A stretch of 64,000 bases of DNA from an uncultured Bacteroidales bacterium (GTDB lineage: Bacteria > Bacteroidota > Bacteroidia > Bacteroidales > Paludibacteraceae), in assembly GCA_902800215.1 (NCBI GenBank), contig CADCDS010000013.1, positions 38,585 to 102,584 on the forward strand. The letters are read 5' to 3'. Shown piece after piece: positions 2 to 50,866 of this stretch (position 1 is its first letter; each line of letters opens with the position of its first letter). The notes beneath the pieces are model-generated. The model was given only the letters and a program-made list of their open reading frames with translations. It was not told the origin of the DNA and ran no database searches. A program made the position numbers and the translations under genes.

Positions 2-271
2 GATGTGGTGAACAGTCCGACGTTTGCGATCGTGAATGTGTACGACGTGGAACAACCGTACAAGGGAGAGGTCTATCATTTCGACTGTTACCGGTTGAAG
101 GACATCCGGGAAGCGTTGGACTTCGGAGCGGAGGAGTACCTCTATTCGGGGAACTACTGTTTCATCGAGTGGCCGGAGATGATCGAAGCCATCCTGCCGG
201 ACGACACGGTATGGGTACATATCACGCCATTGGAGAATGGAGATAGGAGATTGGAGATTGGTAATTCGTAA
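2..271 (+). CDS. tsaE: TsaE, t6A tRNA-modification ATPase (5' end outside window)
   Basis: C-terminal part of TsaE, the ATPase that works with TsaB and TsaD to make N6-threonylcarbamoyladenosine at position 37 of ANN-decoding tRNAs. The visible part starts with the family motif [13 protein letters not shown], and later has FDCYRL, a conserved acidic stretch, and FIEWPE. The Walker A lysine segment must lie just upstream of the window; the frame is open to the left edge, so the GTG at position 5 is not a true start. The last codons (from [13 protein letters not shown]) are written by a 7-bp tandem array that runs on past the stop, so the C-terminus is repeat-derived. The gene is followed closely by an ABC ATPase. 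Identification is from motifs and is secure despite the truncation. Confidence 0.9.
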
Positions 272-291
272 TTTTTAATTCGTAATTGATA
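229..291. repeat. Nine-unit heptamer array across the tsaE stop
   Basis: Nine successive 7-mers in perfect register: attggag, aatggag, ataggag, attggag, attggta, attcgta, attttta, attcgta, attgata. It covers the last 14 codons of tsaE, the stop and the spacer up to the next start. It is the clearest member of the degenerate short-period array family in this window. Confidence 0.9.
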
Positions 292-294
292 CAC

Positions 295-945
295 ATGATA
301 GAAGTTTATAATATATGGAAATCGTTCGGTGATCTGGAAGTGCTGAAGGGTGTTAACCTGGAGGTGCAGAGGGGGGAGATCGTCGCGATCATCGGTAAGT
401 CTGGTGCCGGTAAGACTACCCTACTCCAGATCATCGGAACCTTAGACCGTCCGACGAAGGGAGAGGTGATTATTAACGGCGAAAGGCTCATGGCGAAAGG
501 CGAGAGGGCACTTGCCGCTTTCCGGAACAAGCATATCGGTTTTATCTTCCAGTTCCATCAGCTCTTACCGGAGTTCACGGCCTTGGAGAACGTGTGCATC
601 CCGGCGATGATTGCGGGAGAGAAAGAGCGAGATTATAAACCGAGAGCGGAGAAGTTGTTACGGGACCTGGGACTCGGTGATCGCATGGACCATAAGCCGA
701 ATGCGCTCTCCGGAGGAGAGAAACAGCGTGTAGCCGCAGCCAGAGCATTGATCATGAGTCCGGATATCATCCTGGCCGATGAACCGACGGGTAGTCTCGA
801 TACCCAAAACAAAAAGGAACTGAGTGATCTGTTGTTGCAGTTACGCAAAGCGTATGGTCAGACGATCCTGTTGGTGACGCACGATAAGGAACTGGCATCT
901 ATTGCAGACCGCATCATTGAGATCAAAGACGGAGTTATTGTATAA
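295..945 (+). CDS. lolD: LolD-type ABC transporter ATP-binding protein
   Basis: ATPase subunit (217 aa) of the LolD/MacB group of ABC transporters, which drive lipoprotein release from the inner membrane or MacB-like export. Visible motifs are Walker [10 protein letters not shown] (residues 34-42), signature LSGGEKQ (138-144), Walker B ending ILADEP (Asp162, Glu163) and the switch His196 in VTHD. The length matches stand-alone LolD. The ATG at 295 is chosen over a TTG three codons earlier because alignment to the family begins at [11 protein letters not shown]. No permease lies beside it, so its partner is elsewhere; in Bacteroidota lolD is often separate from lolC/E. A different substrate of the MacB/FtsE group cannot be excluded. 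Confidence 0.88.
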
Positions 946-950
946 AGGTG

Positions 951-1958
951 ATGGGTTATAGGTTATGGGTTATAGGGTTAGCCGCGTTGTTGTTGACCGC
1001 TTGTCAGCAGGGTCGGCAGTATTGGTCAGGAGAGACGGAACCGCAGCAGATGGAGATCGTGCGGTTTGATAAGGCATTGCTCAATGTGCAGGCGCAGACC
1101 GTGGAACAAGACATACGGAATCTGTATGCAAATTATCCGGAGTTTATGCCGCTTTGGGTGGAGAATATATTAGGAATCCCTTCGCAAGACACCGCGTTTT
1201 TAGTTCAACAATTACCGTTGTTTTTGGAAGACACGCTGTATGGTTTTAAGCAGACGAATGCCAAGGAGAAAGAACTGTTTGCGGATACAGACGATCTGCA
1301 ACAGTCTATTAATAAAGCCTTTACACGTATTCGTTCGATATATCCGAATTGGGAGTTCCCTACCCTATACCTGTTCATCTCGGGTTTTCAGACACCGATC
1401 TATATGGAGGATGAGTTGATCGCTATCGGAGCGGATATGTACTTGGGCAGCGACTATCCGTATTATAACTACGTCGTCTATGATTACCAGAAGCAGACCA
1501 TGCGCAAGGAGTGCATTCCGGTGGATGTGGTAAGTGCCTATTTGTTCCGGAATATCTCGTTTACGAGTGGTCAGAACCGCTTGTTGGACCAGATGATATA
1601 TAGGGGTAAGATTATGTACCTGACGGCACAGATCTTTGATGACCTGCCGGGATATGAGGTGATGGGATGGACCAAGGAACAATGGGATTGGTGCGTGGTC
1701 AATGAAGAAGCGATCTGGCATCATATGATGGATCAACGGGATCTATTTAAAACGGAGCATCTGGTGATCTCCAATTATCTGAACGATGCCCCCTTTACGT
1801 CAGAGGTGAGTCAGGAAAGTCCGGGTCGGTTAGGTATCTGGATGGGTTGGCGGATTGTGGAGTCGTATATGGAACATAACGAAGAGGTGACGCTGCAGGA
1901 ACTGATGGCGGAACCCGATGCACAAAAGATACTGGAACAAAGTCAATACAGACCCTAA
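951..1958 (+). CDS. gldB: GldB-like lipoprotein
   Basis: A 335-residue lipoprotein: short signal ending in the lipobox LLTAC, so the mature protein begins at the Cys near residue 18. The body resembles the GldB family of Bacteroidota (RFDKALL near the start, an NLYANYPEF segment, and conserved Trp/Tyr-rich motifs such as GWTKEQWDWC). In Flavobacterium GldB is needed for gliding; in non-gliding Bacteroidales homologs are conserved with unclear function, probably in envelope biogenesis. ATG at 951 is preferred to GTG at 948. The first codons lie inside a 7-bp array. It ends in TAATG, overlapping sufS by one base, so the two are probably translationally coupled. Confidence 0.75.
   Translation: MGYRLWVIGLAALLLTACQQGRQYWSGETEPQQMEIVRFDKALLNVQAQTVEQDIRNLYANYPEFMPLWVENILGIPSQDTAFLVQQLPLFLEDTLYGFKQTNAKEKELFADTDDLQQSINKAFTRIRSIYPNWEFPTLYLFISGFQTPIYMEDELIAIGADMYLGSDYPYYNYVVYDYQKQTMRKECIPVDVVSAYLFRNISFTSGQNRLLDQMIYRGKIMYLTAQIFDDLPGYEVMGWTKEQWDWCVVNEEAIWHHMMDQRDLFKTEHLVISNYLNDAPFTSEVSQESPGRLGIWMGWRIVESYMEHNEEVTLQELMAEPDAQKILEQSQYRP
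953..980. repeat. Heptamer array in the gldB-like signal peptide
   Basis: Units gggttat, aggttat, gggttat, agggtta. They encode the start of the signal peptide (MGYRLWVIGL), so the array has been absorbed into a functional export signal. Confidence 0.75.
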
Positions 1959-3157
1959 TGAATAAAGCAGATTTTCCGATATTGAAGCAGCAGGTACACG
2001 GACGGAATTTGGTGTACCTGGATAATGCAGCCACGAGTCAAAAGCCTCAGTGCGTCATTGATGCGATTGTGGAGGCGTACAGCACGTGGAACAGCAATAT
2101 CCACCGCGGTGTGCATCATCTCAGTCAAGTGGCGACGGCACATCATGAAGCGGCACGCAAGGCGGTAGCGAATTTTATCGGTGCGAAGAGCAGTGATGAG
2201 ATCGTGTTCACCAAAGGTACGACGGATAGTTTGAACGCACTTGCCTTCTCCTTTGGAGAAGCTTTTATCCATGAAGGTGATGAGATCATCGTCAGCGGTC
2301 TTGAGCATCATTCGAACATCGTGCCGTGGCAAATGCTCTGTGAGCGCAAGAAAGCCATCCTGCGGCATATTCCCTTACGAGAGGATTTATCGCTCGATAT
2401 AGCGGCTTTTAGGGCACTTCTGAGCGATCGTACGAAGTTAGTGAGTGTAGCGCAGGTAAGTAACGTCTTAGGAACGATCCAACCGGTGGAAGAGATCATT
2501 AAGTTGGCGCATGATAGGAATATACCTGTTTGTATCGACGGCGCGCAGAGTGTGCCGCATATGTCGGTCGATGTGCAGGCGCTGGATTGCGATTTCCTGG
2601 TGTTCTCCGGTCATAAGCTATACGGTCCCACCGGTATCGGTGTGCTGTACGGTAAACGGGAGTGGTTGGAGAAACTTCCGCCGCATGAAGGTGGGGGTGA
2701 GATGATTGACCATGTGCGCTGGAGCGGAACCACGTATAATGAGTTGCCGTATAAGTTCGAAGCCGGTACACCCAATTTCGTAGGCTCTTATGCATTGCAT
2801 AAGGCGATCGAGTATATCGACACCATCGGTTGGGAAGCTATTGAGGCGCATGAACGGGATCTGACGGAGTACTGTGAGCAGCAGTTAGTTGATTTAGGGT
2901 GTAAAGTGTATGGTGCCGGTCAACAGAAAGCAGGGGTCATCAGTTTCAATGTCGGTGCGATTCATCCGTTTGACGTAGGTACCCTACTCGACCAGCAAGG
3001 CATAGCCGTTCGTACGGGTCATCATTGTGCGGAACCGCTGATCGATGCGATGGGTGTTCCGGGAACGGTGCGTGTGTCCTTTGGTTTGTATAACGACAAG
3101 GACGACGTAGATGCGTTCATCGCGGCCTTGAAACGCACGATAGATATGTTATCATGA
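1958..3157 (+). CDS. sufS: SufS cysteine desulfurase
   Basis: PLP-dependent class II cysteine desulfurase (399 aa) that takes sulfur from L-cysteine as a persulfide and hands it to the SUF Fe-S cluster machinery. N-terminal LDNAATSQKP binds substrate and cofactor; the PLP Schiff-base lysine is Lys220 in FSGHKLYGPTG; the catalytic persulfide Cys357 sits in RTGHHCAEP, with the SufS-type spacing rather than the longer NifS/IscS loop. Length is normal. Starts on the TAATG overlap with the lipoprotein upstream and overlaps the next gene by four bases (ATGA). The sufBCD genes usually precede sufS in Bacteroidota but are not upstream here. Confidence 0.95.
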   Translation: MNKADFPILKQQVHGRNLVYLDNAATSQKPQCVIDAIVEAYSTWNSNIHRGVHHLSQVATAHHEAARKAVANFIGAKSSDEIVFTKGTTDSLNALAFSFGEAFIHEGDEIIVSGLEHHSNIVPWQMLCERKKAILRHIPLREDLSLDIAAFRALLSDRTKLVSVAQVSNVLGTIQPVEEIIKLAHDRNIPVCIDGAQSVPHMSVDVQALDCDFLVFSGHKLYGPTGIGVLYGKREWLEKLPPHEGGGEMIDHVRWSGTTYNELPYKFEAGTPNFVGSYALHKAIEYIDTIGWEAIEAHERDLTEYCEQQLVDLGCKVYGAGQQKAGVISFNVGAIHPFDVGTLLDQQGIAVRTGHHCAEPLIDAMGVPGTVRVSFGLYNDKDDVDAFIAALKRTIDMLS

Positions 3158-4062
3158 GGTTTTTCCTGATCGGAATAGTAGTTTTGGCAGGCGTTTTGAC
3201 GGCGTCTGCTGATTCTTTGTGTGTGGTCAGTTATAATGTAGAGAACCTCTTTCATCCGGAAAACGACTCCATCACGGAGGATGATGAATGGACACCCGAC
3301 GGTGAACGGCATTGGTCTTTTGCACGCTATAACCGCAAGGTGGAGAACATCGCCCGGGTGTTGACGAATATCGGCGAATGGAGTGGAGTAGATGTAGTGG
3401 GACTGCAGGAGATTGAGAATGCGGCGGTGGTGAAGAAACTGTGTTATACGCTCAGACGAGGAGAGTACGGTTTTGTGCATTACGATAGTCCGGATCGACG
3501 AGGTATCGACGTCGCGCTCATCTATAAGAAGAGCAGGGTAGATACGTTGAGAAGTGAAAAGTTAAAAGTGAAGAGTGAAGTGTTTACGACCCGTGACATC
3601 TTGTATGTCAGTGCCTTAGTGGATAAAAAAGACACGATCCATTTCTTTGTCTGCCATCTGCCGAGTCAACGGGGCGGAGCGGCAGAGAGTGAATGGAAAC
3701 GGGAAGCAGCTAAGGAGACTTTGCAGCAGGCGGTGGACAGTGTGCTGGAGACAAACAAAGATGCCAAGATCATCGTCATGGGGGATATGAATAGTGAGGA
3801 TATAAGGGTTAGTGGATTAGTGGATGAGAGGATGAGAGGAAACGGAACGCATAAGTATCAAGGCAGATGGACCTATTTGGATCATTTCTATGTTTCGCCG
3901 TCCATAAACAAAGTATCCACTGCACGTGTGTATGACGCAGAGTGGATACAGGAGAATGATGAGAAATACATGGGTTTGAAACCCAAACGCACCTATAACG
4001 GCTTCACCTATCAGAATGGGTATTCGGACCATCTGCCGATCGTGCTGACGGTATCATTTTAG
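3154..4062 (+). CDS. Secreted endonuclease/exonuclease/phosphatase family protein
   Basis: 302-residue protein with a signal peptide (MRFFLIGIVVLAGVLTASA) and one EEP fold domain of the DNase I-like superfamily. Diagnostic motifs in order: VVSYNVENLF, VVGLQEIEN (metal-binding Glu), RRGIDVALIYK, IVMGDMNSED (catalytic Asp/Asn) and YSDHLPIVL (catalytic His near the end). Substrate cannot be told; family members cleave DNA, phospholipids or inositol phosphates. An insertion in the middle (RSEKLKVKSEV) is coded by a 7-bp array and a second short array codes VSGLVDERMRG. It overlaps sufS at ATGA and converges with the next gene, sharing nine bases at the 3' ends. Confidence 0.85.
   Translation: MRFFLIGIVVLAGVLTASADSLCVVSYNVENLFHPENDSITEDDEWTPDGERHWSFARYNRKVENIARVLTNIGEWSGVDVVGLQEIENAAVVKKLCYTLRRGEYGFVHYDSPDRRGIDVALIYKKSRVDTLRSEKLKVKSEVFTTRDILYVSALVDKKDTIHFFVCHLPSQRGGAAESEWKREAAKETLQQAVDSVLETNKDAKIIVMGDMNSEDIRVSGLVDERMRGNGTHKYQGRWTYLDHFYVSPSINKVSTARVYDAEWIQENDEKYMGLKPKRTYNGFTYQNGYSDHLPIVLTVSF
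3546..3580. repeat. Heptamer array inside the EEP gene
   Basis: Units gttgaga, agtgaaa, agttaaa, agtgaag, agtgaag in register. It codes a charged loop between two strands of the EEP fold. Confidence 0.8.
3807..3840. repeat. Octamer-like array inside the EEP gene
   Basis: Degenerate 8-bp units built on ggattagt and ggatgaga, just after the catalytic GDMNSED motif. Second array in the same gene. Confidence 0.7.
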
Positions 4063-5376: not shown

Positions 5377-5383
5377 AATAATT

Positions 5384-5411
5384 ATCAATTATCAACTATC
5401 AATTATCAACT
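5384..5411. repeat. Heptamer array at the EamA 3' end
   Basis: Units atcaatt, atcaact, atcaatt, atcaact. It covers the EamA stop codon and the leader of the downstream gene on the minus strand. Confidence 0.88.
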
Positions 5412-6323
5412 TCCTAACGCCAGGCAGATTAAACCGGTAATTATACCCATCATACAAAGTATTTTCTTCACGGGATCTTTCTCTTTGAGCCAAATCAACC
5501 CATATGCAAATCCGATCACGGCCCCTCCCCTTCGTATCGTACTCACCACGGCAATCAGCGAATCCGGATCCCTCAGTGCCAACATATAGACGTTATCGGA
5601 TATGATAAGGAATATACTGATCAAGCATATCACCCCTTTTTTTACGATAGGTCTTCTGACGGCTGAATGTTGACTTCTGAAAGCTAACCACACCATGAGC
5701 ATCATTCCCGCCTGATAGATCGTGTAATACACCTGCACCGCGTTATGGTCATACTGCCGCATCAGGTACTTGTCGTACAATCCCGAACATGCCCCCAGTA
5801 ATATCGCCAACGCTAAAGCGATATAATACCGCCTCTCACTTTTATCCTTTCGAAGTCTCGAAATATCGACGTTTCGACGTCTCGCCTTAAAACTAAACAC
5901 CAGAATCGTTCCAATAGCAAGAACGATTCCAATCCACTGCCATGTATTCAGCCGCTCGTTAAACAGCACCAACGCACCGAGCAGTGTCCACATCGGTCTC
6001 GTGGCTTGTGCCGGACTGACCACGGAGATGGGAAGATGTTTGAGTGATATGTATCCGAACACCCAGCTGCTCAGTACGATCACGGACTTCAGCAGTGTCA
6101 ACAGGTGTGCCTGCAGGTCCATACTCGGCACGTAGAAATGCGTACCTACCATTGTCTCGGGAATGACACTTGAGAGCACTAACGGAATCGCCAACAGCAC
6201 CGCCGACACGCACACACTCATCGTGAGCACATCGATCACGGCGTTCTCCTTCAGGGCGATCTTCTTGCTTACATCATAAAACCCCAGGCACAGTGCCGAT
6301 ATAAATGCCAGTACAGTCCACAT
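5406..6323 (-). CDS. EamA/DMT-superfamily transporter
   Basis: A 305-residue inner-membrane protein with about ten hydrophobic segments in two EamA-type halves, each beginning with an FxxALxxGxYD-like motif (FISALCLGFYDVSKK and ILLGACSGLYDKYL). The conserved P-A-Q/T and WxxxGALVLFNERL motifs are present before the fifth segment. Members export or import small metabolites; substrate unknown. Two cytoplasmic loops are coded by short-period arrays: KARRRNVDISRLRKDKSER between the halves, and FRSQHSAVRRPIVKK in the second half. The start at 6323 lies three bases from the stop of the DUF4419 gene upstream, so they form an operon. Confidence 0.88.
   Translation of the reverse strand: MWTVLAFISALCLGFYDVSKKIALKENAVIDVLTMSVCVSAVLLAIPLVLSSVIPETMVGTHFYVPSMDLQAHLLTLLKSVIVLSSWVFGYISLKHLPISVVSPAQATRPMWTLLGALVLFNERLNTWQWIGIVLAIGTILVFSFKARRRNVDISRLRKDKSERRYYIALALAILLGACSGLYDKYLMRQYDHNAVQVYYTIYQAGMMLMVWLAFRSQHSAVRRPIVKKGVICLISIFLIISDNVYMLALRDPDSLIAVVSTIRRGGAVIGFAYGLIWLKEKDPVKKILCMMGIITGLICLALGS
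5662..5692. repeat. Heptamer array in an EamA loop
   Basis: On the minus strand the units are tcagaag, tcaacat, tcagccg, tcagaag. They code the loop FRSQHSAVRR between two membrane helices. Confidence 0.7.
5843..5882. repeat. Octamer array in the EamA central loop
   Basis: 8-bp units tttcgaag, tctcgaaa, tatcgacg, tttcgacg, tctcgcct. They code the basic linker RRRNVDISRLRKD between the two halves. Confidence 0.8.
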
Positions 6324-6342
6324 CTCTAATCCCTAATCTCTA
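6322..6342. repeat. Heptamer array between EamA and DUF4419 genes
   Basis: Three units atctcta, atcccta, atctcta at the junction of the two minus-strand genes, spanning the DUF4419 stop and the EamA start. Confidence 0.75.
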
Positions 6343-7605: not shown

Positions 7606-7654
7606 CACCCGAATTTAAGCAGTATGGATATGTCTACCGGAAAGGGAACTACTT

Positions 7655-18729: not shown

Positions 18730-21204
18730 ATGAAAAAGATTGGTTTGGTAACTTTGGCTCTGCTGGCGTTCGGATGGCTGTCCGCGTCAGCTGAGACCAT
18801 TAAAGGAAATGTAATCGACGCGAATGGCGAAGCGATGCCGTTCGTGACGATTTCTGTTTTGACACAAGACTCCACCTTGATCACCGGTGCAATCACCGAT
18901 GATAACGGTAATTATGCCGTTGAGGTGCAAAATGCAAAGGATCTAATCATTCAGGCATCCTATGTGGGTTATGTGACGGCGTTCGGCGGACCGGATTTCG
19001 TGTTGCGCGAAGAGACGGAAAAGTTAGCGGAAGTGGAGGTCAAAGCGAAGAAACCGCTGATAGAGCGGCAGATGGATAAGTTAGTAGTGAACGTGAGTGC
19101 AAGTCCCTTATCGGCCGGCAGTAACGGAAACGATATCTTACGTCGTGCGCCGGGTGTGCGGATTGACAAAGACGGGAATATCACGGTGAACGGAAAGAGT
19201 GTGGAGGTGTACGTGGACGGTAAACCGTCGTACTTGAGCGGTCAGCAGCTGAAGGCGATGTTAGACGGAACGGACGGCAACACGATCGAGAAGATAGAGA
19301 TCATCTCGAACCCGAGTGCCAAATACGATGCATCGGGTTCCGGCGGAATCATCAACATCAAGACGAAACGGAACATGATGCAGGGTCTGAACGGTATGTT
19401 GAGTGCCGGGTATGGAGGTATGTATTTCGGCGACATCAAACGATGGTTGAACATGGATATGGTGTCGCTCAATCTAAACTACCGCGGAGAGAAGACCTAT
19501 ACCTTCGGTCAGTTGACGCAGGTGTACGCAGAGAACGATGTGGATTTTACCACGTACCGCAAGACGCCGATGACGGAAGGCTTGTCAAAATCGGGATACG
19601 ACATCGGTTTTCAGTACTACATGGTGAAGGTGGGTAACGACTGGTATATCGACAAGAAGAACACCTTGGGATTCATCTTGCAGGTACCGTACATGAAGAT
19701 GAATCAGAACAGCGATGCGGAGCGGAATGAGGCATGGACGTACGATGTTGCGACGGGAGACACGGCACGGAGTATCTCGGTCACACAGACGCATTATAAG
19801 GCACCGCAGCACACGGCGAACCTGAACTACACGCATATTTTTGACGAGGAGTTGGATCGGGAGTTGACGGTGAACGTCGATTTTAACCGCTACAACAACC
19901 AGTCTGCAAACATGCAGAAGACGAACTACATAGGGGATAAGTTGCAACAGTTGGATATCAACAGCAAGCAGGTAGCGGATATCTATAGTGCGAAACTCGA
20001 CTTCCAAACCAAGTTCTGGCAGACGGGTTTGTTGGAATGCGGTGTAAAATATGCATTGTCTTCGACGGATAACCAGATGACGACGGACTCGACGGTGAAT
20101 GAGACGCTGATCAGCAGTACCCCTTCGAATTTCTTATACCAGGAACATGTCGCTGCGGCGTATATATCGGCCGGAAAGCAGTTCGGTGAACACTGGTCCG
20201 TTAAATTAGGTCTGCGCGGTGAATACACGTTCAGTCACGGCGACTGGAAGAGTGCGGACAGCGTGACGAACAAGAGTTATTTCGATCCTTTCCCGACAGC
20301 GTATATCGGTTACACGAGTAGTCCGTTAGGTAAGATTGGTCAGCCGATCAGCGTGAGTGCCAGTTACACACGGCGTATCAAACGGCCGAACTACTGGATG
20401 CTGAATCCGTTTAGGCAGTACACCGATGCGTACAGTTATCAGGAAGGAAACACGGAGTTGAAACCCGAATACAACAACGACGTGGAGATCAATTTCAGTT
20501 GGACGCAGTACCTGAACATGACGTTTAACTTCGGTCACACGCAGGATATGTTCTCCCAACCAGCGACGATCCTGCCGGACGGAATGGGGTACGTGAAATG
20601 GAAAAATTTCGGTACCTGCACGACGCACGGTATCAATGTGTCGCTGACGGAGTTGCCGTTGGTACCCAAGTACGCGTCGATGCCGGACGGTACGCGTATG
20701 ATGCAGGGAGCATGGTTGGCATTGACGGTGAACGGCGGATGGATGCATTTTATTAACAAGTCCTATGAGAAAGATGTAGCCGGTAAACCGGTGTATGAGA
20801 ACCGGAACCATTACGGTCATGTAGGCGGTACTTTATCGGCGTACTTACCGAAGGACTGGACGATGACGTTGGATGCCAACTGGTCAAGTCCGATGACGAC
20901 GGGTTATGACCGGGACGGCGGCATGTATTTCATGAATTTCGGTGTACGGAAGATGATCATGAGTAAGGGTCTGATCCTGAATCTGAACGTACAGGATCTG
21001 GCACGGAGTATGAGTTTCGAGACCCATAACGAGGGCATGCAAGAGGGGTATGCAAGTTGGTACAAGAACACCGTGCGGAGTCAGAAAGTGATGCTGAGCG
21101 TGACCTGGATGTTCGGTCAATATCAGCAACACCAGCAACGGAAAGTGGGTGATATGGATGAGTTAGACCGCTTAGGAGGAGGCGGAGGTGTGAAGACCAA
21201 TTAG
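18730..21204 (+). CDS. TonB-dependent outer-membrane receptor
   Basis: 824 residues: signal peptide (MKKIGLVTLALLAFGWLSASA), a CarboxypepD_reg-like beta-sandwich (IKGNVIDANGEAMPFVTISVL), a TonB plug (ILRRAPGVRIDKDGNITVNGK ... IEIISNPSAKYDASGSGGIINI shows the classic plug motifs) and an outer-membrane beta-barrel family domain to the end, ending with barrel strand VMLSVTWMFG followed by a short glycine tail. Ligand unknown; without a SusD partner a peptide, metal or cofactor is as likely as glycan. The adjacent lipoprotein gene is its probable accessory protein. The last 33 bases overlap the convergent esterase gene. Confidence 0.93.
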   Translation: MKKIGLVTLALLAFGWLSASAETIKGNVIDANGEAMPFVTISVLTQDSTLITGAITDDNGNYAVEVQNAKDLIIQASYVGYVTAFGGPDFVLREETEKLAEVEVKAKKPLIERQMDKLVVNVSASPLSAGSNGNDILRRAPGVRIDKDGNITVNGKSVEVYVDGKPSYLSGQQLKAMLDGTDGNTIEKIEIISNPSAKYDASGSGGIINIKTKRNMMQGLNGMLSAGYGGMYFGDIKRWLNMDMVSLNLNYRGEKTYTFGQLTQVYAENDVDFTTYRKTPMTEGLSKSGYDIGFQYYMVKVGNDWYIDKKNTLGFILQVPYMKMNQNSDAERNEAWTYDVATGDTARSISVTQTHYKAPQHTANLNYTHIFDEELDRELTVNVDFNRYNNQSANMQKTNYIGDKLQQLDINSKQVADIYSAKLDFQTKFWQTGLLECGVKYALSSTDNQMTTDSTVNETLISSTPSNFLYQEHVAAAYISAGKQFGEHWSVKLGLRGEYTFSHGDWKSADSVTNKSYFDPFPTAYIGYTSSPLGKIGQPISVSASYTRRIKRPNYWMLNPFRQYTDAYSYQEGNTELKPEYNNDVEINFSWTQYLNMTFNFGHTQDMFSQPATILPDGMGYVKWKNFGTCTTHGINVSLTELPLVPKYASMPDGTRMMQGAWLALTVNGGWMHFINKSYEKDVAGKPVYENRNHYGHVGGTLSAYLPKDWTMTLDANWSSPMTTGYDRDGGMYFMNFGVRKMIMSKGLILNLNVQDLARSMSFETHNEGMQEGYASWYKNTVRSQKVMLSVTWMFGQYQQHQQRKVGDMDELDRLGGGGGVKTN

Positions 21205-21957
21205 GAATTGTCTTAAGCACTGTTGCCACATAGTCCAGTTATGCTTCCCATGCAGTTCGATGAACGTGTGTGGGAAGTTGTTTTTTAGCATGCGTTTATG
21301 AAACCTCTTTCCATTCGGTTTTAAAAAATCCTGCTTACCGATATAGATGGAGTAATGGAGGTTGGAGTCTTTGGGCAGTTGGGCCTTATAGAGAACGGGA
21401 GAGAAGAGACCTACTTCATGGATACGATCGGGCCGGTAGTTAGCGATGTTCGCAGCGATGCGTGCACCGTCACTCAGACCGGCAACAGCACAGGTGGTAG
21501 GGTGGTAGAGGCTGTCGATGCTGTCGATGAGGAGACTAACCGACTTCTCGATCTGATGCTCATGACTCATGAAGGGATAGCGGATGACGGACTTCCACAG
21601 TTTCTTATGACACGGTCGCTCTTTGATCACCCACCGGTTACAATCGGGCATGACGAGGATCATGGGTTCGCATAGACCAGCCGCTATCATCTCCTCCAAT
21701 ATCTCTGCGGCGTGACCTAGTTCCGTCCATGATCCTTCGTACCCGTTGATGCCGTGAATAAGGTAAAGCACCTTCATCCCTTCACCATTAACCATTCGCC
21801 TTTCGCCATTAGGAATATAGATATCGACCCGGCGAGAGATGTTCTCGTCGGGACAATACCAGGATGAATGGATGATTTCAGGCGGTGTGCTTGTAGGTTC
21901 GGATGCGCTTACTATCAGTGGAAGCAGCGACAGGAGTAGGAAGAAGAACTGTCTCAT
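21172..21957 (-). CDS. Secreted esterase-D-like alpha/beta hydrolase
   Basis: 261 residues with signal peptide (MRQFFFLLLSLLPLIVSASE). The fold is the esterase D/feruloyl-esterase type: LYLIHGINGYEGSW oxyanion region, MPDCNRW, nucleophile Ser in AGLSDGARIA (GxSxG), a late Asp and the His in HGKHNW. Probably removes acyl groups from carbohydrate or trehalose-type substrates outside the cytoplasm. A heptamer array codes NGERRMVNGEGM next to the first core strand. Its start lies 80 bases inside the upstream glycosyltransferase frame, an unusually long overlap, and its 3' end overlaps the TonB receptor by 33 bases. Confidence 0.83.
   Translation of the reverse strand: MRQFFFLLLSLLPLIVSASEPTSTPPEIIHSSWYCPDENISRRVDIYIPNGERRMVNGEGMKVLYLIHGINGYEGSWTELGHAAEILEEMIAAGLCEPMILVMPDCNRWVIKERPCHKKLWKSVIRYPFMSHEHQIEKSVSLLIDSIDSLYHPTTCAVAGLSDGARIAANIANYRPDRIHEVGLFSPVLYKAQLPKDSNLHYSIYIGKQDFLKPNGKRFHKRMLKNNFPHTFIELHGKHNWTMWQQCLRQFLIGLHTSASS
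21781..21815. repeat. Heptamer array in the esterase gene
   Basis: Units ttcacca, ttaacca, ttcgcct, ttcgcca, ttaggaa, in perfect register. Codes the loop NGERRMVNGEG. Confidence 0.88.
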
Positions 21958-43888: not shown

Positions 43889-43945
43889 ATCTTAAAATCT
43901 TAAATCTAAAATCACAAATCTTAAATCATAAATCATAAATTTGAA
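43889..43945. repeat. Eight-unit heptamer array between gpmI and sirtuin
   Basis: Units atcttaa(a), atcttaa, atctaaa, atcacaa, atcttaa, atcataa, atcataa, atttgaa. It covers the whole spacer and the sirtuin stop. Confidence 0.92.
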
Positions 43946-44631: not shown

Positions 44632-44659
44632 CTCTAAACTCTAAACTTTCAACTCTCAA
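44632..44659. repeat. Heptamer array between sirtuin and smpB
   Basis: Units ctctaaa, ctctaaa, ctttcaa, ctctcaa; ends over the smpB stop. Confidence 0.88.
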
Positions 44660-45123
44660 CTAAATTGTGCAAATTTTTTAATTTGCGCAATTTGCCGTTT
44701 GTCATCTGCTTCACGAAGACTCTGCCGCTTGTCATAGGTATGTTTACCTTGACAGAGCGCTATCTCCATCTTCGCCAAACCCTTCTCGTTGATGAACAGG
44801 CACAGCGGAACGATCGTCTTTCCCGTGTCCTTGGTTGCTTTCTCCAGTTTCCGGATCTCTTTCCGTTGCAGCAGCAACTTCCTGTCCCGCTTCGCCTCAT
44901 GGTTGGCGTACGAACCAAAACGGTATTCCGCGATATGCATCTGTTTGACGTACATCTCCCCGTGTTCGACAGCGCAGTACGAATCGACTAACGACGCCTT
45001 TCCTTCCCGTATCGACTTAATCTCCGTGCCGAATAACTGAATACCCGCCGTGTATCGGTCCAGAATGATGTACTCAAACTTCGCCTTCTTGTTTACTATT
45101 TTGACGTCACTCTTCGCTTTCAT
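44656..45123 (-). CDS. smpB: SsrA-binding protein SmpB
   Basis: 155 residues; carries tmRNA to stalled ribosomes. Family motifs [40 protein letters not shown] (beginning), [24 protein letters not shown] and [30 protein letters not shown] (C-terminal tail). tmRNA itself (ssrA) was not found in the window. Starts 17 bases inside the upstream CNNM-type gene. Confidence 0.96.
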
Positions 45124-46189
45124 TTTCCTCTTTCAACTTTCCACTTTCCACCTTCCGATATTTCTTCTGCCTTTGCTCCCAACGATCACGAGCATACTGC
45201 TGCATATCGATGACGGTGTCGTTCTCGTCAATGATCTCCAGACCGAAGATGGTCTCGATGATATCTTCCAAGGTCAGGATACCGACGAACATACCGTACT
45301 CATCGATAATCTGGGCGATCTGACTCTTCTGCTTAAGCATACTATCAAAAATTGTGCCAAGTGTCAGGTCCTGATCAAAAGCCGGTAACGGACGTTTGAT
45401 GCCGCCTAAGGTCTTGCGGAAATGGTCCTCCGTCAATTCCTCCAAGGCATCGTTGCGCAGCACGTAACCCGTGATATACTCCGGAGCTTCGGGTTTGTAC
45501 AAAGGAATACGGGAGAAATGGTCGTACTCATCGTTATCATAATAGGCTCTGAGCGTCATGTTCTCCGGTGCAATCTTCGCTACCACACGCGGCGTCATCA
45601 CGTCGTACGCATGGATGGTATCGAGTCGCATGAGGTTAGAGAAGATCTTGTTCTCGTCTTCATCGACTACACCTTCTTCTTCTCCTACATTCACCATCGA
45701 CAGCACTTCTTCCCGGCTCACCGACGGTTCGTCTTCGTTGTCCGGGAACATCTTCGTGATCAATTCCACCAACAGCACAAAGGGATACAGCACGATGATC
45801 AGTACCCGGATCGTACGTGCCGTGAAACCCATCAACTGCCGCCAGTAACTGGTACCGATCACCTTCGGAATGATCTCACCGAAGATCAGGATCAGCAGCG
45901 TCACGATGGCGGACACCAATCCGAACCAGGCACTACCGAACACAGCTGTCGCCTGCATACCGACACCTGCTGCACCAATCGTGTTGGCGATGGTGTTTAA
46001 ACTCAGAATAGCCGCTAACGGACGACCCGTGTCATCCTTGTATTGCGCCATGAGTGTTGCCGGCGCGTAACCTTCTTCTTCCCGTAAGTTGATATAACTG
46101 AGTGAGGTGGACATCAGTACCGATTCCAACACGGAACATAAAAAACTGACGGTCATCGCACCGAATAAGAACAATAGTAATAATCCCAT
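45107..46189 (-). CDS. CNNM/CorC-type transporter-like protein (DUF21 and CBS)
   Basis: 360 residues. A DUF21 membrane domain of about four helices (with [14 protein letters not shown]) is followed by two CBS domains ([18 protein letters not shown] then [11 protein letters not shown] and [26 protein letters not shown]). Homologs are Mg2+ efflux/transport regulators of the CorB/CNNM group. The last residues before the stop ([14 protein letters not shown]) are repeat-coded. Its 3' end overlaps the smpB start by 17 bases. Confidence 0.9.
45130..45157. repeat. Heptamer array at the CNNM-type gene C-terminus
   Basis: Units ctttcaa, ctttcca, ctttcca, ccttccg, coding [10 protein letters not shown]. 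Confidence 0.85.
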
Positions 46190-47053: not shown

Positions 47054-48580
47054 ATGAGGAAAGGAATTCTTTTGATAGCCGCTTTTTTGACGGTATCCAT
47101 GCTTACGGCGCAAGCCGTAGAGGTAACTTATACCCCGGACAATACGACGATCTTCAAGAACCCCGAACGCGGGTTCACGGAAGAACTGAACGGCAAGGTG
47201 TCGGTTAGCAATCCCTATCGCGTGAAGAACCATATCAGCTCCAACTGGGGGAACTCCGACAAGATGACCATGCCGGTTGTGCTGTATAACTTCGGCAATT
47301 TCAAGACTCAGGACCTGCCGGACGCTATTCTGAACGGTTTTGACGAAGACATGCAGGTGCTGCGTGACATGGGTCTGAAATGTGTGTTACGCTTCGCATA
47401 TACCGAGCGGGAGAGCGACAAAGAGGACGCCAAGCCGGCATGGGCTATCCGGCATATGGAGCAGTTGAAACCCCATCTGGCCGCCAACGCGGATGTGATC
47501 TATGTGTTGGAAGCGGGATTCGTCGGCGTGTGGGGGGAGTGGTACTACTCCAACAACTACGGCAACGAGACGCAGCACGTGACCGCGAACCGGCGCACGA
47601 TCATCGAGAACCTGTTTGCCAACGTACCGACGGACCGTTTCATCCTGTTCCGTTACCCCATGATCCAACAGGATTATCTGCACGACAAGAATCCTTTGAC
47701 AGCTACCGAGGCGTTCAGCGGAACGGAGAAATCGCGGATGGGATGTCATAACGATGCGTTTCTCCATAACTGGGGTAACATGGGCACGTATGCCAGCGAC
47801 GATGACGACGATGACCCCAAGCAACGTCAGTACGTAGCGACCCAGTGCCTCTACACGCCGAACGGCGGAGAGACGAATATCGACGACGACGATAACCTGG
47901 CGGAACGGATGTACAGCAAGGCCCCGTCCGAGATGAGCACCTACCACTGGTCCTTCTGCGGTTCGACCTATGCGATGCCGGTTATCCGACGTTGGCGCAA
48001 CAGCGGTATCTTCGATACGCTGAACGTGTACATGGGCTACCGGTACAACCTGCTCAATGCGCAGTTCAGCAACGAGGCGGCACCGGGCGGCAAGGCGAAT
48101 ATCACCATTCGCGTGCGCAACGCGGGTTATGCGCCCATATACAACGAACGACCGGCGTATATCGTATTCCGCAATCAGCAATCCACCTTCAGAATACAAC
48201 TGAAAGCGGACCCGAGACGGTGGGCACCGAACGGTTTTGTGAGTTGGATCAACGAGCAGGTGGATATCCCTGCCGACGCTCCGGAAGGTACATACCGGCT
48301 CTATCTGTGGTTGCCGGATAAGTACGAGTCCATCCAGAACGACCCGCGCTATGCCGTGCGCTTTGCCAACACCGATGTATGGGACAGCAACACGGGGTAT
48401 AATAACCTGAATGCATCTATCGTTATCAACCGAAATGCACCGATGAATCCGGGAGAACTGCCGGAAGGGATAGAAGAGGTGAGCGATGAGCGGTTAGAGG
48501 TTAGTGGTCCTCAGAAAGTAATACAAGACGGAATCTTTTATATTTTAATGCCTAATGGACGTAAATACTATTGTCTTTGA
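47054..48580 (+). CDS. Secreted DUF4874/DUF4832 protein
   Basis: 508 residues with a signal peptide (MRKGILLIAAFLTVSMLTAQA). The N-terminal half is DUF4874-like (NPERGFTEELN, LRDMGLKCVLRFAY, VLEAGFVGVWGEWYY) and the C-terminal half DUF4832-like (WSFCGSTYAMPVIRRWRNSG, YRYNLLNAQFSNEAAPGG), a combination known from secreted carbohydrate-active proteins. An aspartate run (SDDDDDDP) could bind calcium. The short C-terminal tail (KVIQDGIFYILMPNGRKYYCL) resembles a type IX-like sorting tail. Just before it a heptamer array codes SDERLEVSG. Overlaps the HAD gene by 26 bases. Confidence 0.88.
   Translation: MRKGILLIAAFLTVSMLTAQAVEVTYTPDNTTIFKNPERGFTEELNGKVSVSNPYRVKNHISSNWGNSDKMTMPVVLYNFGNFKTQDLPDAILNGFDEDMQVLRDMGLKCVLRFAYTERESDKEDAKPAWAIRHMEQLKPHLAANADVIYVLEAGFVGVWGEWYYSNNYGNETQHVTANRRTIIENLFANVPTDRFILFRYPMIQQDYLHDKNPLTATEAFSGTEKSRMGCHNDAFLHNWGNMGTYASDDDDDDPKQRQYVATQCLYTPNGGETNIDDDDNLAERMYSKAPSEMSTYHWSFCGSTYAMPVIRRWRNSGIFDTLNVYMGYRYNLLNAQFSNEAAPGGKANITIRVRNAGYAPIYNERPAYIVFRNQQSTFRIQLKADPRRWAPNGFVSWINEQVDIPADAPEGTYRLYLWLPDKYESIQNDPRYAVRFANTDVWDSNTGYNNLNASIVINRNAPMNPGELPEGIEEVSDERLEVSGPQKVIQDGIFYILMPNGRKYYCL
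48476..48510. repeat. Heptamer array before the DUF4832 tail
   Basis: Units gaggtga, gcgatga, gcggtta, gaggtta, gtggtcc. Codes EVSDERLEVSG, joining the domain to its sorting-like tail. Confidence 0.85.
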
Positions 48581-49184
48581 TTTAGGAGGCGTGATCATCA
48601 ACCTCAATGTGCCGCGGTGTGTAGGGAACTTCAAGCAGTTGATGGATGAGGAATATATCCGCACGGTCTTAGGGATCGATGATGAAGGCGAAGGCGTCGT
48701 GGCGGTCAGTGCAGCTACCAAACAATTGATGCACGACTATGAGTACGGAAATATCTCCACGGAGGAATTTCTGAAAACCCTGCAGGAGTACTGCTATCCC
48801 GGTACCACGATCGAGCAGATTCGGGATGCATGGCTCAGTATGTTGGACGAGTTACCGCAAGAAAGGCTCGATTTCATCGGGAGTTTACGAGCACAAGGAT
48901 ATCGCACGATTTTATTGTCCAACTCCAATGAGTTGCATTGGCAACCTATTTGGGATGAATATAACTTAGGCAGCTATTTCGATGCGGTCTTTGCATCGCA
49001 GAAACTGCATATGGCGAAACCGAATCAGGAGATCTTCGATCACGTAGTACGGGAAGCAAAAGTGGACTGTGCACACACGATTTATGTCGATGACCTCGAG
49101 AAAAACCGTAAAGCCGGAGAGAAATTCGCAGGCTGGGAGACGGTGGAGAGTATAGAAGAATTGAAAGAGAAATTATCGGAATAA
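48555..49184 (+). CDS. HAD-family phosphatase, YihX-like
   Basis: 209 residues of the haloacid dehalogenase superfamily: motif I FDLGGVI (Asp then Gly where the usual second Asp would be, as in YihX-type alpha-glucose-1-phosphatases), motif II LLSNSNE, motif III lysine in AKPNQEIF and motif IV YVDDLEKN. Probably a small-sugar-phosphate phosphatase. Starts 26 bases within the DUF4832 gene; followed by a sugar kinase. Confidence 0.85.
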   Translation: MDVNTIVFDLGGVIINLNVPRCVGNFKQLMDEEYIRTVLGIDDEGEGVVAVSAATKQLMHDYEYGNISTEEFLKTLQEYCYPGTTIEQIRDAWLSMLDELPQERLDFIGSLRAQGYRTILLSNSNELHWQPIWDEYNLGSYFDAVFASQKLHMAKPNQEIFDHVVREAKVDCAHTIYVDDLEKNRKAGEKFAGWETVESIEELKEKLSE

Positions 49185-49209
49185 CGGTATAACGGGATAC
49201 CGGGATACC
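49178..49209. repeat. Octamer array after the HAD gene
   Basis: Units ggaataac, ggtataac, gggatacc, gggatacc, across the HAD stop and into the spacer. Confidence 0.82.
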
Positions 49210-49227
49210 GACAAAATATTTTAGACC

Positions 49228-50310
49228 ATGAAAGCCATACTGAAGCATTTTGCGATTTGGAATGAAGTGGATGAACCGCAACCTTTACGGATCGGATTCA
49301 TCAATGATTCGTTTGTAGTGCCGGCGAAGCGTGTCGGCGAAACGGCGTATTGTCTGCAACGGATCAACCATAAGATCTTTAAGGATGTGGAAGGTCTGAT
49401 GCGGAACATTGAGATCGTCACCTCTCATATCCGGGAGAAGTTATTAATCGAGCGGGAAGAGAACATCGAGCGGAAAGTGCTGCATCTGATTCCGACGAAA
49501 GAGGGTAAACTCTTTTACAAGAGTCCGGAAGGCGATTACTGGCGCTTGTATGTGCTGGTGGAGCCGGCTACATCGCAGGAGAAAGTGACCCCGATGTCGG
49601 CGGAACTGACGGGTCAGGCGTTTGGTCGTTTCCAACGCCAGTTGGCGGATCTGCCGTTTAATGCTTTATGCGAATCGATCCCTAATTTCCATAATATGGA
49701 GTTCCGTTTGCATGAGTTGGATGAGGCTTTGGCTGCCGATAAAGCCGGTCGTAAAGCAGCTTGCAAGGATATCATCGAATGGATTGACAAGCGGAGGGAG
49801 ATGATGTGTCTGGCGGAGGTGCTGTTCCGGGAAGGCAAACTGAAGAAACATATCAACCACTGCGATACCAAGGTGAACAACGTGCTCTTTGACGAGAAAG
49901 GCCGACCGATCTGTATCGTGGATCTGGATACCGTCATGCCGGGCTTTGTGTTCAGTGATTTCGGTGACTTCATGCGTACGGCGGCTAATACGGGTCTGGA
50001 AGATGATCCGAATGTGGATAATATCCATGTGGATCTGGAGATTTTTGAAGCTTATGCACGCGGATATCTGAAGGAAGCTACCTTCTTGACGGAATTGGAG
50101 AAAGAGTTGTTACCGTACGGGTGCCGTTTGTTGAGTTACATGCAGACAGTGCGGTTCTTTACCGACTATATCAACGGCGATACCTATTATAAGATCGCCT
50201 ATCCCGAGCATAACATCGTGCGTACAAGAGCACAGCTGAGGCTGGTGGAAGAGCAAGAGAAAGTGGAACCTCAAATGAAAAAGATCATCCATGACTTGTG
50301 CAGTAAATAA
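49228..50310 (+). CDS. Phosphotransferase-family sugar kinase (NahK-like)
   Basis: 360 residues of the aminoglycoside phosphotransferase fold. Catalytic loop HCDTKVNNVLFD (HxDxxxxN) and metal-binding DLDTVMPG are complete; N-terminal RIGFINDSFVVPA and LQRINHKIFKDVEGLMRNI are typical of NahK-like N-acetylhexosamine 1-kinases in Bacteroidota. It probably phosphorylates an amino sugar at C1. Neighbours (a secreted DUF4832 protein, an HAD phosphatase and a CBM9-like protein) suit a glycan-use locus. Overlaps the next gene by 20 bases. Confidence 0.85.
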   Translation: MKAILKHFAIWNEVDEPQPLRIGFINDSFVVPAKRVGETAYCLQRINHKIFKDVEGLMRNIEIVTSHIREKLLIEREENIERKVLHLIPTKEGKLFYKSPEGDYWRLYVLVEPATSQEKVTPMSAELTGQAFGRFQRQLADLPFNALCESIPNFHNMEFRLHELDEALAADKAGRKAACKDIIEWIDKRREMMCLAEVLFREGKLKKHINHCDTKVNNVLFDEKGRPICIVDLDTVMPGFVFSDFGDFMRTAANTGLEDDPNVDNIHVDLEIFEAYARGYLKEATFLTELEKELLPYGCRLLSYMQTVRFFTDYINGDTYYKIAYPEHNIVRTRAQLRLVEEQEKVEPQMKKIIHDLCSK

Positions 50311-50866
50311 GGTCAATTGGCCGGATAGTTTTCCGGAGAAACCGGAAGTGACGGTGGAAGTAAGCAACGACCACGAAGCGTTGTATTTAAAATGGCACGT
50401 GAAGGGAGAACAACTGCGTGCCGTGACGACGGAGGATCAGGGACCGGTATGGGAAGACTCGTGTGTGGAGTTTTTCTGCCAAGTACCGGGAGAGGATACG
50501 TATTGCAATTTTGAGTGCAACTGCATCGGTGCAATGGTGGGTTCCCGACGCAAAGGCAGAGCGGAAGATGTCGTGCCGTTTTCTTCCGATGAAATGGGAA
50601 GAATTGAGCGCAAATGTACCTTCCCCAGAGAAGCGTTTGAGGAGAAAGACGGTTGGTTTGAATGGGAAGTGGAAGAGCGTATCCCCTTAGACCTGATTTT
50701 CCAATCTCCAATATCCAATCTCCAATTTCCAATGACCCTAAAAGCCAATTTCTACAAATGTGCCGATAAAACAAAACGGCCGCACTTCTTGAGTTGGCAG
50801 CCGATTTGTTTACCGAAACCGGACTTTCATTGTCCGCAGTTCTTCGGAGAGATTACTCTACTTTAG
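50291..50866 (+). CDS. CBM9-like carbohydrate-binding protein
   Basis: 191 residues with a family 9-like carbohydrate-binding fold: LKWHVKGEQLRAVTTEDQGPVWEDSCVEFFC and CNFECNCIGAMVGSRR, with conserved Trp and acid-pair motifs. No signal peptide, so it would be cytoplasmic unless the start is wrong. The segment after LIF (QSPISNLQFPMTLKA) is written by a heptamer array. Cysteines in VEFFCQV and the tail HCPQFFG are unusual. Its 3' end overlaps the convergent phosphoesterase gene by 14 bases. Function is probably accessory to the kinase. Confidence 0.8.
   Translation: MTCAVNKVNWPDSFPEKPEVTVEVSNDHEALYLKWHVKGEQLRAVTTEDQGPVWEDSCVEFFCQVPGEDTYCNFECNCIGAMVGSRRKGRAEDVVPFSSDEMGRIERKCTFPREAFEEKDGWFEWEVEERIPLDLIFQSPISNLQFPMTLKANFYKCADKTKRPHFLSWQPICLPKPDFHCPQFFGEITLL
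50701..50735. repeat. Heptamer array in the CBM9-like gene
   Basis: Units ccaatct, ccaatat, ccaatct, ccaattt, ccaatga. Codes QSPISNLQFPM, an insertion in a beta-sandwich loop. Confidence 0.9.

Follow-up and report, generated by a model that had tools for sequence, protein, structure and literature searches.

The question raised by this locus is why the chromosome of a gut-type bacterium is dotted with patches in which a word of seven or eight letters is repeated, imperfectly, four or five times in tandem, in spacers as well as inside genes, and by what process such patches arise. Heptamer repeats have been noticed in bacteria before, and the papers cited below offer no settled cause. We analyzed the window, i.e., the whole 64,000-nucleotide stretch of DNA considered here, together with 864 kb of its genome (G000), the genome of a sister species (G186; 93.2% identity over 208 kb), and further members of the genus.

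A detector with a fixed criterion of at least 16 matches in 20 comparisons found 15 arrays at lag 7 and seven at lag 8 in the window, and none at either lag in 20 Markov-1 simulations of it. A scored detector (score of at least 12), which was used for all later array counts, found 29 arrays in the window with periods of 7 (14 arrays), 8 (eight), 14 (two), and 9, 10, 11, 12, and 15 (one each), in agreement with a sequence-only reading that had reported at least 28 loci and a few units of 9–10 bp. Across the 864 kb, the periods were 7 (170 arrays), 8 (50), 14 (22), 11 (20), 9 (12), 6 (11), 15 (10), 12 (8), 10 (5), and 13 and 4 (one each), and the median length of arrays with 7- or 8-bp units was 33–36 bp. 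Five shuffles of the same 864 kb, in which codons were kept in genes and bases in spacers, produced no arrays at periods 7, 8, 11, or 14. The excess at lags 7 and 8 over codon-preserving shuffles, set beforehand as the test, was thus present genome-wide (220 arrays of 7 or 8 bp versus none), and the proposed sharing of period and style goes beyond chance. Together with the Markov simulations, the shuffles rule out chance and codon usage; given also that arrays occupy the same sites in separately assembled relatives, an origin in chance, codon usage, or assembly artefact has practically no probability. As in the bacterial heptamer SSR/STRR class, 7-bp tandem units lie far above chance here. No period-7 or period-8 array was found in 50 kb of E. 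coli K-12, an Rfam search of the window returned no match to a known RNA family, and GC content showed only a weak trend with arrays (rho 0.22, p 0.06, over the 72 of 80 loci that reach 10 kb). Sites in the window are listed below, with the state of G186 (sister) where it differs.

231 to 287, plus strand: 7-bp array across a gene end, drifting from TGGAGAT to TCGTAAT; sister, one unit more.
934 to 976, plus strand: GGTTATN 7/14-bp array at a gene junction; sister, one extra unit.
3548 to 3583, plus strand: TGAAAAG 7-bp array in gene 3154-4062; sister segment different and longer.
3806 to 3840, plus strand: GGATGAGA 8-bp array in gene 3154-4062.
5380 to 5409, minus strand: TTGATAA (sense) 7-bp array at a gene junction; sister, not detected.
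5850 to 5884, minus strand: 8-bp array in gene 5406-6323; sister word at the site, GGAGTCA.
6322 to 6355, minus strand: 7/14-bp array across a gene junction.
15289 to 15323, plus strand: GAAAGTC 7-bp array in a Fic-domain gene, the sole 7/8-bp array of 7.5–16 kb.
17942 to 17987, plus strand: GGGTTAC/GGGTGAC array in an AraC-type regulator gene, an in-frame replacement of a variable segment.
21190 to 21210, plus strand: site without an array at the stop codon of gene 18730-21204; sister, 61-bp inverted heptamer array (hairpin).
21778 to 21810, minus strand: AATGGCG/AAAGGCG 7-bp array in a spacer; sister, GGAGATT array at the same site.
23903 to 23938, minus strand: ATTTTCTC 8-bp array in a gene; sister, 7-bp ATTTTTA-type array.
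24305 to 24331, minus strand: GATAGTTT 8-bp array in a spacer; sister, not detected.
25435 to 25470, minus strand: TTTCTCAT 8-bp array in a gene; sister, other weakly periodic sequence, +3 bp.
26491 to 26526, plus strand: ATTTTCTC 8-bp array in a gene; sister, CCATTTA 7-bp array.
26824 to 26849, plus strand: CAAATAA 7-bp array across a gene end.
28721 to 28761, plus strand: AACTAGAAC 9-bp array across a gene end.
29784 to 29813, plus strand: ATAGTTTGAA 10-bp array directly after a gene end; sister, replaced.
38905 to 38934, minus strand: GTTTGAAA (sense) 8-bp array at a gene junction; sister, different segment.
39859 to 39892, minus strand: GATTGAC 7-bp array (Tandem Repeats Finder) in gene 38929-40485, between receiver and PglZ domains; sister, GAAAGTC array.
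42287 to 42344, minus strand: ATTGGAG/ATTTAAG 7-bp array after the pgm stop; sister, two units fewer.
43254 to 43280, minus strand: GGTTACG array within the phosphoglycerate mutase gene.
43895 to 43947, minus strand: ATTTAAG/ATTTATG 7-bp array across the spacer that precedes pgm; sister, exactly three units fewer.
44632 to 44661, minus strand: GTTTAGA/GTTGAAA (sense) 7-bp array at a gene end.
45124 to 45156, minus strand: GAAAGTG 7-bp array near the 3' end of a CNNM/CBS gene; three units fewer than sister.
48475 to 48508, plus strand: GGTTAGA-type 7-bp array near a gene end; sister, different segment.
49174 to 49210, plus strand: TAACGGGA 8-bp array across a gene end; sister, one 8-bp unit fewer.
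50700 to 50733, minus strand: GGAGATT-family array in gene 50291-50866.

The impression that most arrays start or stop near a gene end found no support in the larger sample: of 170 heptamer arrays, 99 fall within called genes, a count that carries error from the simple hexamer-based gene caller. In the window, half of the 24 arrays with periods of 7, 8, or 14 (12) are contained entirely in called genes. Unlike members of the heptamer SSR/STRR class, the 7-bp arrays are therefore not mainly intergenic; the 8-bp arrays are (11 of 50 inside genes). The link to gene ends is partial: arrays occur in 41 of 84 co-directional gaps of 20–49 bp versus 3 of 55 divergent gaps, positions that fit tolerance. 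Inside genes, period-7 arrays outnumber those of period 6, 9, 12, or 15 by 99 to 29, and since selection there would favour multiples of three, the prevalence of seven points to a mutation process. Intergenic arrays are oriented: on the sense strand G exceeds C in 65 of them and falls below it in 29 (p = 0.0003), compared with a 78 to 70 split in the non-array control. Read in the sense direction, 58 of 99 have stops in every frame, versus 34 of 99 read antisense. This orientation hints that the transcript is under selection. The accessory island at 7.5–16 kb, described earlier as almost free of arrays, does hold a single one of periods 7–10 or 14 where 3.8 are expected, a deficit that is not significant alone (P = 0.10). 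The stretch from 50.74 to 64 kb also lacks periods 7–10 and 14 and holds one period-12 and one period-15 array.

The array patches are unusually fast-evolving DNA. Of 77 array sites compared between G000 and G186, 56 were rewritten; among control windows the share was 8.5% in coding and 16.6% in noncoding DNA. Non-identical columns made up 36.6% of arrays, 6.1% of coding sequence, and 8.8% of noncoding sequence. The proposed comparison of orthologous loci for unit-number changes yielded whole-unit differences (7, 7, 7, 8, 14, 21, and 21 bp, besides few point changes) at seven of the 56 rewritten sites, as slippage, one of the sources then suggested, would give. The arrays share such variation in unit number among relatives with the heptamer SSR/STRR class. 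Whole-unit changes are a minority among rewritten sites, and many of these carry a new word that is not a one-step product of simple slippage. Six rewritten sites had a net length change of zero. At four of them the words clearly differ and the flanks are nearly identical; in one such case a GGGTTAC array faces a GCGAATG array, each within a block of 48 bp (L173 versus L308). Length changes kept the frame in 16 of 25 cases at coding sites and 10 of 25 elsewhere (Fisher p = 0.16), which is a tendency only, and some of the "coding" changes actually sit at gene ends. The array in the AraC-type gene is absent from all 13 alignable relatives (29 fetched), and the one within the phosphoglycerate mutase gene occupies the place of NGEGRKET or a near form in most relatives. 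One-sided events numbered 36 by detection threshold, or 25 if even a weak array was barred in the other genome. At the one clean insertion, the 61-bp inverted array of G186 at the empty G000 site 21190..21210, there was no target duplication. A 21-nt hairpin core is common, with zero mismatches, to a new G186 insertion and to L024 of G000. REP/REPIN elements consist of palindromic 20–40 bp units in inverted pairs; folded as single strands, the four inverted TTAGC-type arrays seen here gave z-scores of −3.3, −2.5, −1.8, and −1.2 against shuffles, two clearly better and two not, and two direct window arrays folded no better than shuffles.

The sequence-only reading took the words not to be copies of one sequence; several word families nevertheless recur at tens of loci. 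GGGTTAC in three successive units has 89 matches in the genome and the reversed word none, and 192 arrays carry 77 distinct words, the commonest 17 times, compared with about 171 distinct words and a maximum of 5 for random words of the same composition. Families differ sharply among species of the genus, the GGGTTAC pattern being absent from 62 and the GGCTGTT pattern from 81 of 101 genomes, and the probability of drawing the same word twice was 0.024 within genomes, 0.0076 between them, and 0.0018 for random words, i.e., recurrence within a genome was about 3 times that between species and 13 times random. Neighbouring units differed by 1.30 mismatches versus 1.74 in shuffled order, a comparison biased by the detector's own selection for neighbour similarity. 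Among GGGTTAC copies, three of the eight commonest unit triples exceeded three times expectation in both shuffles; AGGTTAC-GGGTGAC-GGGTTAC was seen 5 times (0.4–0.9 expected), and three GGGTTAC units in a row were not over-represented (4 seen, 5.3–6.0 expected). Word recurrence within the genome and the clean 61-bp inverted insertion suggest some copying between loci.

The explanation to which we give about an even chance is that the arrays are hypermutable simple-sequence DNA, arising by local duplication of 7–8 bp and tolerated where it falls in operon spacers or in variable protein segments. Short-patch copying may have spread the arrays as well, but direct tests of it gave weak or negative results. 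The engine would be local duplication and deletion of 7–8 bp during replication, i.e., slippage with a preferred step, after which point changes and the spread of variant units would carry a site from word to word. Mismatch repair handles loops of this size poorly. Loss of mismatch repair was rejected as a cause, as MutS1 scored above the cut-off in 17 of 17 genomes tested, array-rich or array-poor. Patches would last where constraint is least, namely in co-directional operon spacers and, in frame, in variable protein segments (presumably loops or linkers), and would be purged from divergent promoter regions, and the cell would need no dedicated function for them. The vocabulary of a lineage would then reflect shared array ancestry and, in at least one family (inverted TTAGC hairpin arrays), copies placed at new sites.

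Ectopic short-patch copying as the main engine, in which a single strand of one array would anneal elsewhere through short matches and overwrite 20–60 bp, so that match-rich arrays spread as selfish words and each lineage acquires a dialect, appears rather unlikely to us. Short-patch double illegitimate recombination in Acinetobacter resembles such a process; our literature searches on short-patch recombination found no relevant paper. The net-zero word swaps in nearly identical flanks, the segment replacements in pgm and the AraC-type gene, the recurrent unit order of GGGTTAC copies, and the shared hairpin core are consistent with it, but the plain GGGTTAC triple is not in excess and junction microhomology did not exceed that of shuffled pairs (p = 0.39, 25 events). 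Words recur more within genomes than between them, and the longest exact match to random arrays was larger within G106, G007, and G034 than to any other sampled species, although G034 showed no within-genome excess by word identity. In a donor test, new or rewritten G000 arrays matched the genome's own arrays on other chunks over 15.0 nt versus 12.6 nt in other species (p = 0.017), which hardly exceeds the sister's 14.6 nt, and G186 showed no own-genome difference (p = 0.66). We give the same low probability to a reading in which rewriting is genome-wide, with arrays as selfish words overwriting 20–60 bp of spacers and protein segments, templated by other arrays; if so, the process would give each lineage its own vocabulary and steadily supply new in-frame segments to conserved proteins.

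Selected signals, be they binding sites, mRNA stabilisers, translation couplers, or three-frame stop spacers between operon genes, would account for the occupied co-directional gaps and for the oriented composition and stop content, and similar proposals appear in work on cyanobacterial STRR (PMC2670836) and TAACTGA repeats (PMC4679880). We nonetheless think them a quite improbable explanation, given that words differ at the same site between sisters and vary within the genome, that most genomes lack the GGGTTAC and GGCTGTT patterns, that over half of the heptamer arrays are inside genes, and that three-frame stops are automatic for any 7- or 8-bp word with one stop. A role as a recombination or packaging signal, also suggested earlier, seems unlikely because words differ between species and get rewritten between sisters. 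That a transposase or reverse transcriptase moves these repeats as a dedicated mobile element, be it REP/REPIN with RAYT, a retron, or a diversity-generating type, is very improbable: copies are dispersed on both strands, mostly with 4–5 units, and hairpins of two inverted heptamer arrays include one clean insertion, yet that insertion lacks a target duplication. In the GGGTTAC-rich G093 (86 matches), a Y1 transposase match extends over nearly the full length (34.8 bits), but 12 of 17 genomes, including G104, G097, G106, G034, G023, and G186, have none, G000 has two weak partial matches only (24 bits, about 50 of 121 positions), and the strongest belong to G014, where 40 kb hold few arrays. 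Likewise, G023 and G097, the richest in GGCTGTT, each have an RVT_1 match, but G070 has two with zero GGCTGTT matches, and 14 of 17 genomes, including G000, G186, G104, G043, and G007, have none, a single absence being weak evidence at completeness of 78–99% (16 genomes with a stated value; G000, 85%). The repeat-adding enzyme once suggested is thus unsupported in this genome as a reverse transcriptase, and the recommended search for genes always accompanying arrays left most array-rich genomes without a Y1 or RVT_1 match and MutS universal among the 17. These searches give no support to a RAYT/Y1 transposase or a reverse transcriptase as a requirement for the arrays.

The kinship with cyanobacterial STRR heptamers noted at the outset is supported: those of filamentous cyanobacteria mostly have 7-bp units and lie in intergenic DNA, at times within hairpins, with no assigned function (PMC2670836), and the present arrays resemble them but comprise many word families per genome, both 7- and 8-bp periods, and a majority of heptamer arrays in called genes. 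The G-quadruplex heptamers GGGAATC and GGGGA(C/T)T of Xanthomonas and Nostoc (Rehm 2015, PMC4692102) also prefer about four units, are rare in divergent gaps, and vary extensively in length and sequence between related species with the same genes flanking. Some copies of the GGGTTAC family show, by eye, a similar layout of at least four G-tracts of at least three, which the GGAGATT, GGCTGTT, and GAAAGTC families do not show. That work studied one word family per genome, with strong noncoding bias, whereas several families occur here, most without long G-tracts and with many copies in genes. TAACTGA direct repeats are reported from Beggiatoaceae, cyanobacteria, and five Bacteroidetes, including Paludibacter propionicigenes (MacGregor 2015, PMC4679880), the sole relevant report found in our searches for heptamer arrays in Bacteroidetes or Bacteroidales; the earlier remark that no such description was known in Bacteroidales is corrected to that extent and otherwise stands. 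These repeats share with ours a position around gene boundaries and all-frame stops in one orientation, but they are one fixed word, mostly just upstream of start codons in the best-studied genome with related words rare, unlike the many words and rapid rewriting here. TAACTGA is the consensus of one of 759 seven-bp arrays across all loci compared (L071) and of none in 864 kb of this genome. Borg tandem repeats (PMC9879509) are likewise fast-evolving, A-enriched, located in spacers and in frame in genes, and a source of new protein segments, but their units are perfect and divisible by three in genes, where 7-bp units occur here. Long SSRs of 5–11 bp units in prokaryotes, for which polymerase slippage was proposed, have heptamers as the most abundant class in most genomes (Mrazek 2007, cited in PMC4679880 and PMC4692102). 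Heptamers are the most abundant class here as well. The present arrays are degenerate, unlike the repeats of that survey, which reportedly counts perfect ones.

The genus offers 178 genomes for comparison, with hundreds of sites per genome comparable one by one, and change at array sites is 4–9 times commoner than in control windows. Given the period of 7 in genes and the species-specific vocabularies, why seven and how words spread are directly testable within the genus, and the arrays show one way in which segments of conserved proteins come to be replaced in frame.

The window (bases 38585-102584 of contig 13) lies in the 1.96-Mb draft genome G000, for which the nearest named records, with the phosphoglycerate mutase gene as query, were uncultured Bacteroidales and Paludibacteraceae; several of these genomes take their names from rumen or other ruminant-gut samples. 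The genus is large, and our search covered 178 genomes. Degenerate tandem arrays were recovered both by Tandem Repeats Finder and by a lag detector, and 864 kb of G000 yielded 170 arrays with a 7-bp and 50 with an 8-bp period, versus none in five shuffles of the same 864 kb that kept codons and local base content, so that the excess at lags 7 and 8 expected by the sequence-only reading was borne out. Arrays of period 7, 8 or 14 occurred at 20.6 per 100 kb in the loci of 24 close relatives (three without any) and at 7-14 per 100 kb in four other Bacteroidales locus groups, where 20 of 56 loci had none, and were absent from 50 kb of E. coli. Median array length was 33-36 bp, i.e. four to five units. 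Much longer examples include a 164-bp degenerate heptamer array (locus L243, 1146-1309) and a long series of GTTAGAG/GTTAGAA units behind the phosphoglycerate mutase gene at locus L052, both perhaps products of recent expansion. In stretches of G000, G022 and G011, arrays of period 10, 11 and 13 formed a separate class, almost all noncoding (16 of 17 in 464 kb), possibly A/T phasing related to curvature; period 11 was present also in the array-poor genomes G022 and G011.

The same reading had held that the words are unrelated between loci, which the word counts contradict: 77 words cover 192 arrays, the commonest being used 17 times, versus about 171 distinct words expected at random. Three units of GGGTTAC with at most two mismatches gave 51 forward and 38 reverse matches in G000, overlapping registers counted, and the reversed-word control gave none there; the 43 copies tabulated are mostly 28-35 bp long and lie on both strands in many places. 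Further families comprise GGAGATT, GGCTNTT, GAAAGTC, AAAGGCG and 8-mers such as TAACNNTT, and composite arrays shift their word along their length (e.g., AAAGGCG-AAAGGCT-AAAGGTT-ACGGGTT). Vocabularies differed among 101 genomes of the genus. GGGTTAC matches numbered 119 in G104, 89 in G000, 86 in G093, and 79 in G043, with zero in 62 of the 101; GGCTGTT matches numbered 101 in G023, 48 in G097, and 37 in G000, with zero in 81; and GGAGATT had 126 matches in G000 and at most 34 in any other genome. The reversed GGAGATT pattern used as a control is a family in its own right in some genomes, with as many as 46 matches in G107. Among the genomes sampled, the mean probability that two arrays share a word was 0.024 within a genome, 0.0076 between genomes, and 0.0018 for random words. 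The within-genome excess of identical words was absent in G034 and was present there when measured by longest exact match. AAAAATT and AAAAGTG are among the words common to nine or more species.

Turnover was assessed against G186, the sister-species genome that contains locus L042, over 208 kb aligned at 93.2% identity. Ten of 77 array sites were identical, 11 had point changes only, and 56 were rewritten, with an array detected in G000 only (21), in G186 only (15), or in both in altered form (20); 34-bp control windows were altered in 8.5% of coding and 16.6% of noncoding cases. Unit-number changes at orthologous loci, which the earlier reading had proposed looking for, were found at seven sites differing by whole units (7, 7, 7, 8, 14, 21, and 21 bp). 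Six sites kept their length with altered sequence, four of them with clearly different words, and in another type of change an array stood in place of array-free sequence. One clean 61-bp insertion, carried by G186, consists of an inverted GGCTATT-type array right at the stop codon of the gene at 18730-21204; its 21-nt core recurs at loci L024 (no mismatches) and L184 (two mismatches), and its computed hairpin is more favourable than those of shuffled sequences (z -3.3). Downstream of the phosphoglycerate mutase gene of Parabacteroides massiliensis (L105, 11485-11570), a GATTTAT-type array is followed by its inverted copy, with a long computed stem (z -3.8); heptamer hairpins thus occur also in a named species. 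In this cultured relative, four 7-bp arrays were counted over a locus of 21.5 kb.

Arrays also occur within genes for conserved proteins. In phosphoglycerate mutase, the array segment occupies the place of NGEGRKET or a near form found in most relatives; among 36 aligned relatives, only loci L045 and L046, which are more distant than the sister, share it in a decayed version that also has its two extra codons, and the sister gene is without it. In an AraC-type regulator, a variable segment is replaced by a 46-bp GGGTTAC/GGGTGAC array (net five residues) that is absent from all 13 comparable relatives. Length changes kept the frame at 16 of 25 coding sites and 10 of 25 elsewhere (p = 0.16). The gene at 38929-40485 encodes a response-regulator receiver domain and a PglZ domain, between which the heptamer words differ between the two sister species.

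Gaps of G000 containing arrays of period 7, 8 or 14 (864 kb)
Co-directional gaps of 0-19 bp: 8 of 117
Co-directional gaps of 20-49 bp: 41 of 84
Co-directional gaps of 50-99 bp: 22 of 62
Co-directional gaps of 100-299 bp: 11 of 64
Co-directional gaps of at least 300 bp: 10 of 40
Gene overlaps: 4 of 149
Convergent gaps: 7 of 56
Divergent gaps: 3 of 55

Called genes enclose 99 of the 170 heptamer arrays, and for 66 of these both gene ends are over 150 bp away. Because period 7 outnumbers periods 6, 9, 12, and 15 combined (99 versus 29) even within genes, the distribution argues that the period derives from the mutation process rather than from selection. The 13 kb at 50740-64000 of the window contain no arrays of period 7-10 or 14 and carry very large genes (1139, 941, and 877 aa) without an NCBIfam match. 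Taken together, this stretch and the accessory island at 7.5-16 kb suggest that arrays are missing from certain parts of the genome, which may be recent acquisitions. Within the island (7500-16000) lie genes for an rve integrase core (8008-8949), for an AAA_14/DUF4143 protein, for two proteins with TonB_C, and for one with a Fic domain. The divergent promoter region at 26200-26310 contains an AT-rich segment, TAATTTTGCAGCCG, found in at least 27 places in G186 (74-95% over approximately 30-110 bp); it resembles the common Bacteroidales promoter, with conservation over an unusual length.

Periodicity, word recurrence, lineage vocabularies, high turnover, whole-unit changes, and in-frame replacement are all observed. 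The engine would be local duplication through slippage, with the word drifting along the array; neighbouring units differed by 1.30 mismatches versus 1.74 when their order was shuffled, in a test biased by the detector. The word families and the hairpin insertion suggested ectopic copying, of which direct tests came out weak or negative: a donor test gave p = 0.017 in G000 and p = 0.66 in G186, and the junction microhomology expected from such copying showed no excess (p = 0.39). No dedicated enzyme was found among Y1 transposases and reverse transcriptases in 17 genomes, the former having no match in 12 and the latter none in 14, G000 included. Counter-cases are the array-rich G093, whose Y1 transposase match is almost full length, and the GGCTGTT-rich G023 and G097, with RVT_1 matches; each of these three also stands among the top genomes for one word family. 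MutS1 was present in all 17.

Heptamer repeats described in reports on cyanobacteria (PMC2670836), Xanthomonas (PMC4692102), and Beggiatoaceae (PMC4679880) share the period of the present arrays and variously resemble them in number of units, scarcity in divergent gaps, and variability. Literature searches on heptamer arrays turned up no genome combining many vocabularies, a majority of heptamer copies within genes, and vocabularies differing by species; we class the arrays as a variant of the known bacterial heptamer repeats.

Intergenic arrays are oriented: on the sense strand, G exceeded C in 65 and C exceeded G in 29, versus 78 to 70 in non-array windows, and stops occurred in all three frames in 58 of 99 sense versus 34 of 99 antisense readings. 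This orientation may mean that spacers of a C-rich, termination-prone or read-through kind have been removed, or that the arrays have some function; no other result speaks as strongly against the arrays being purely neutral.
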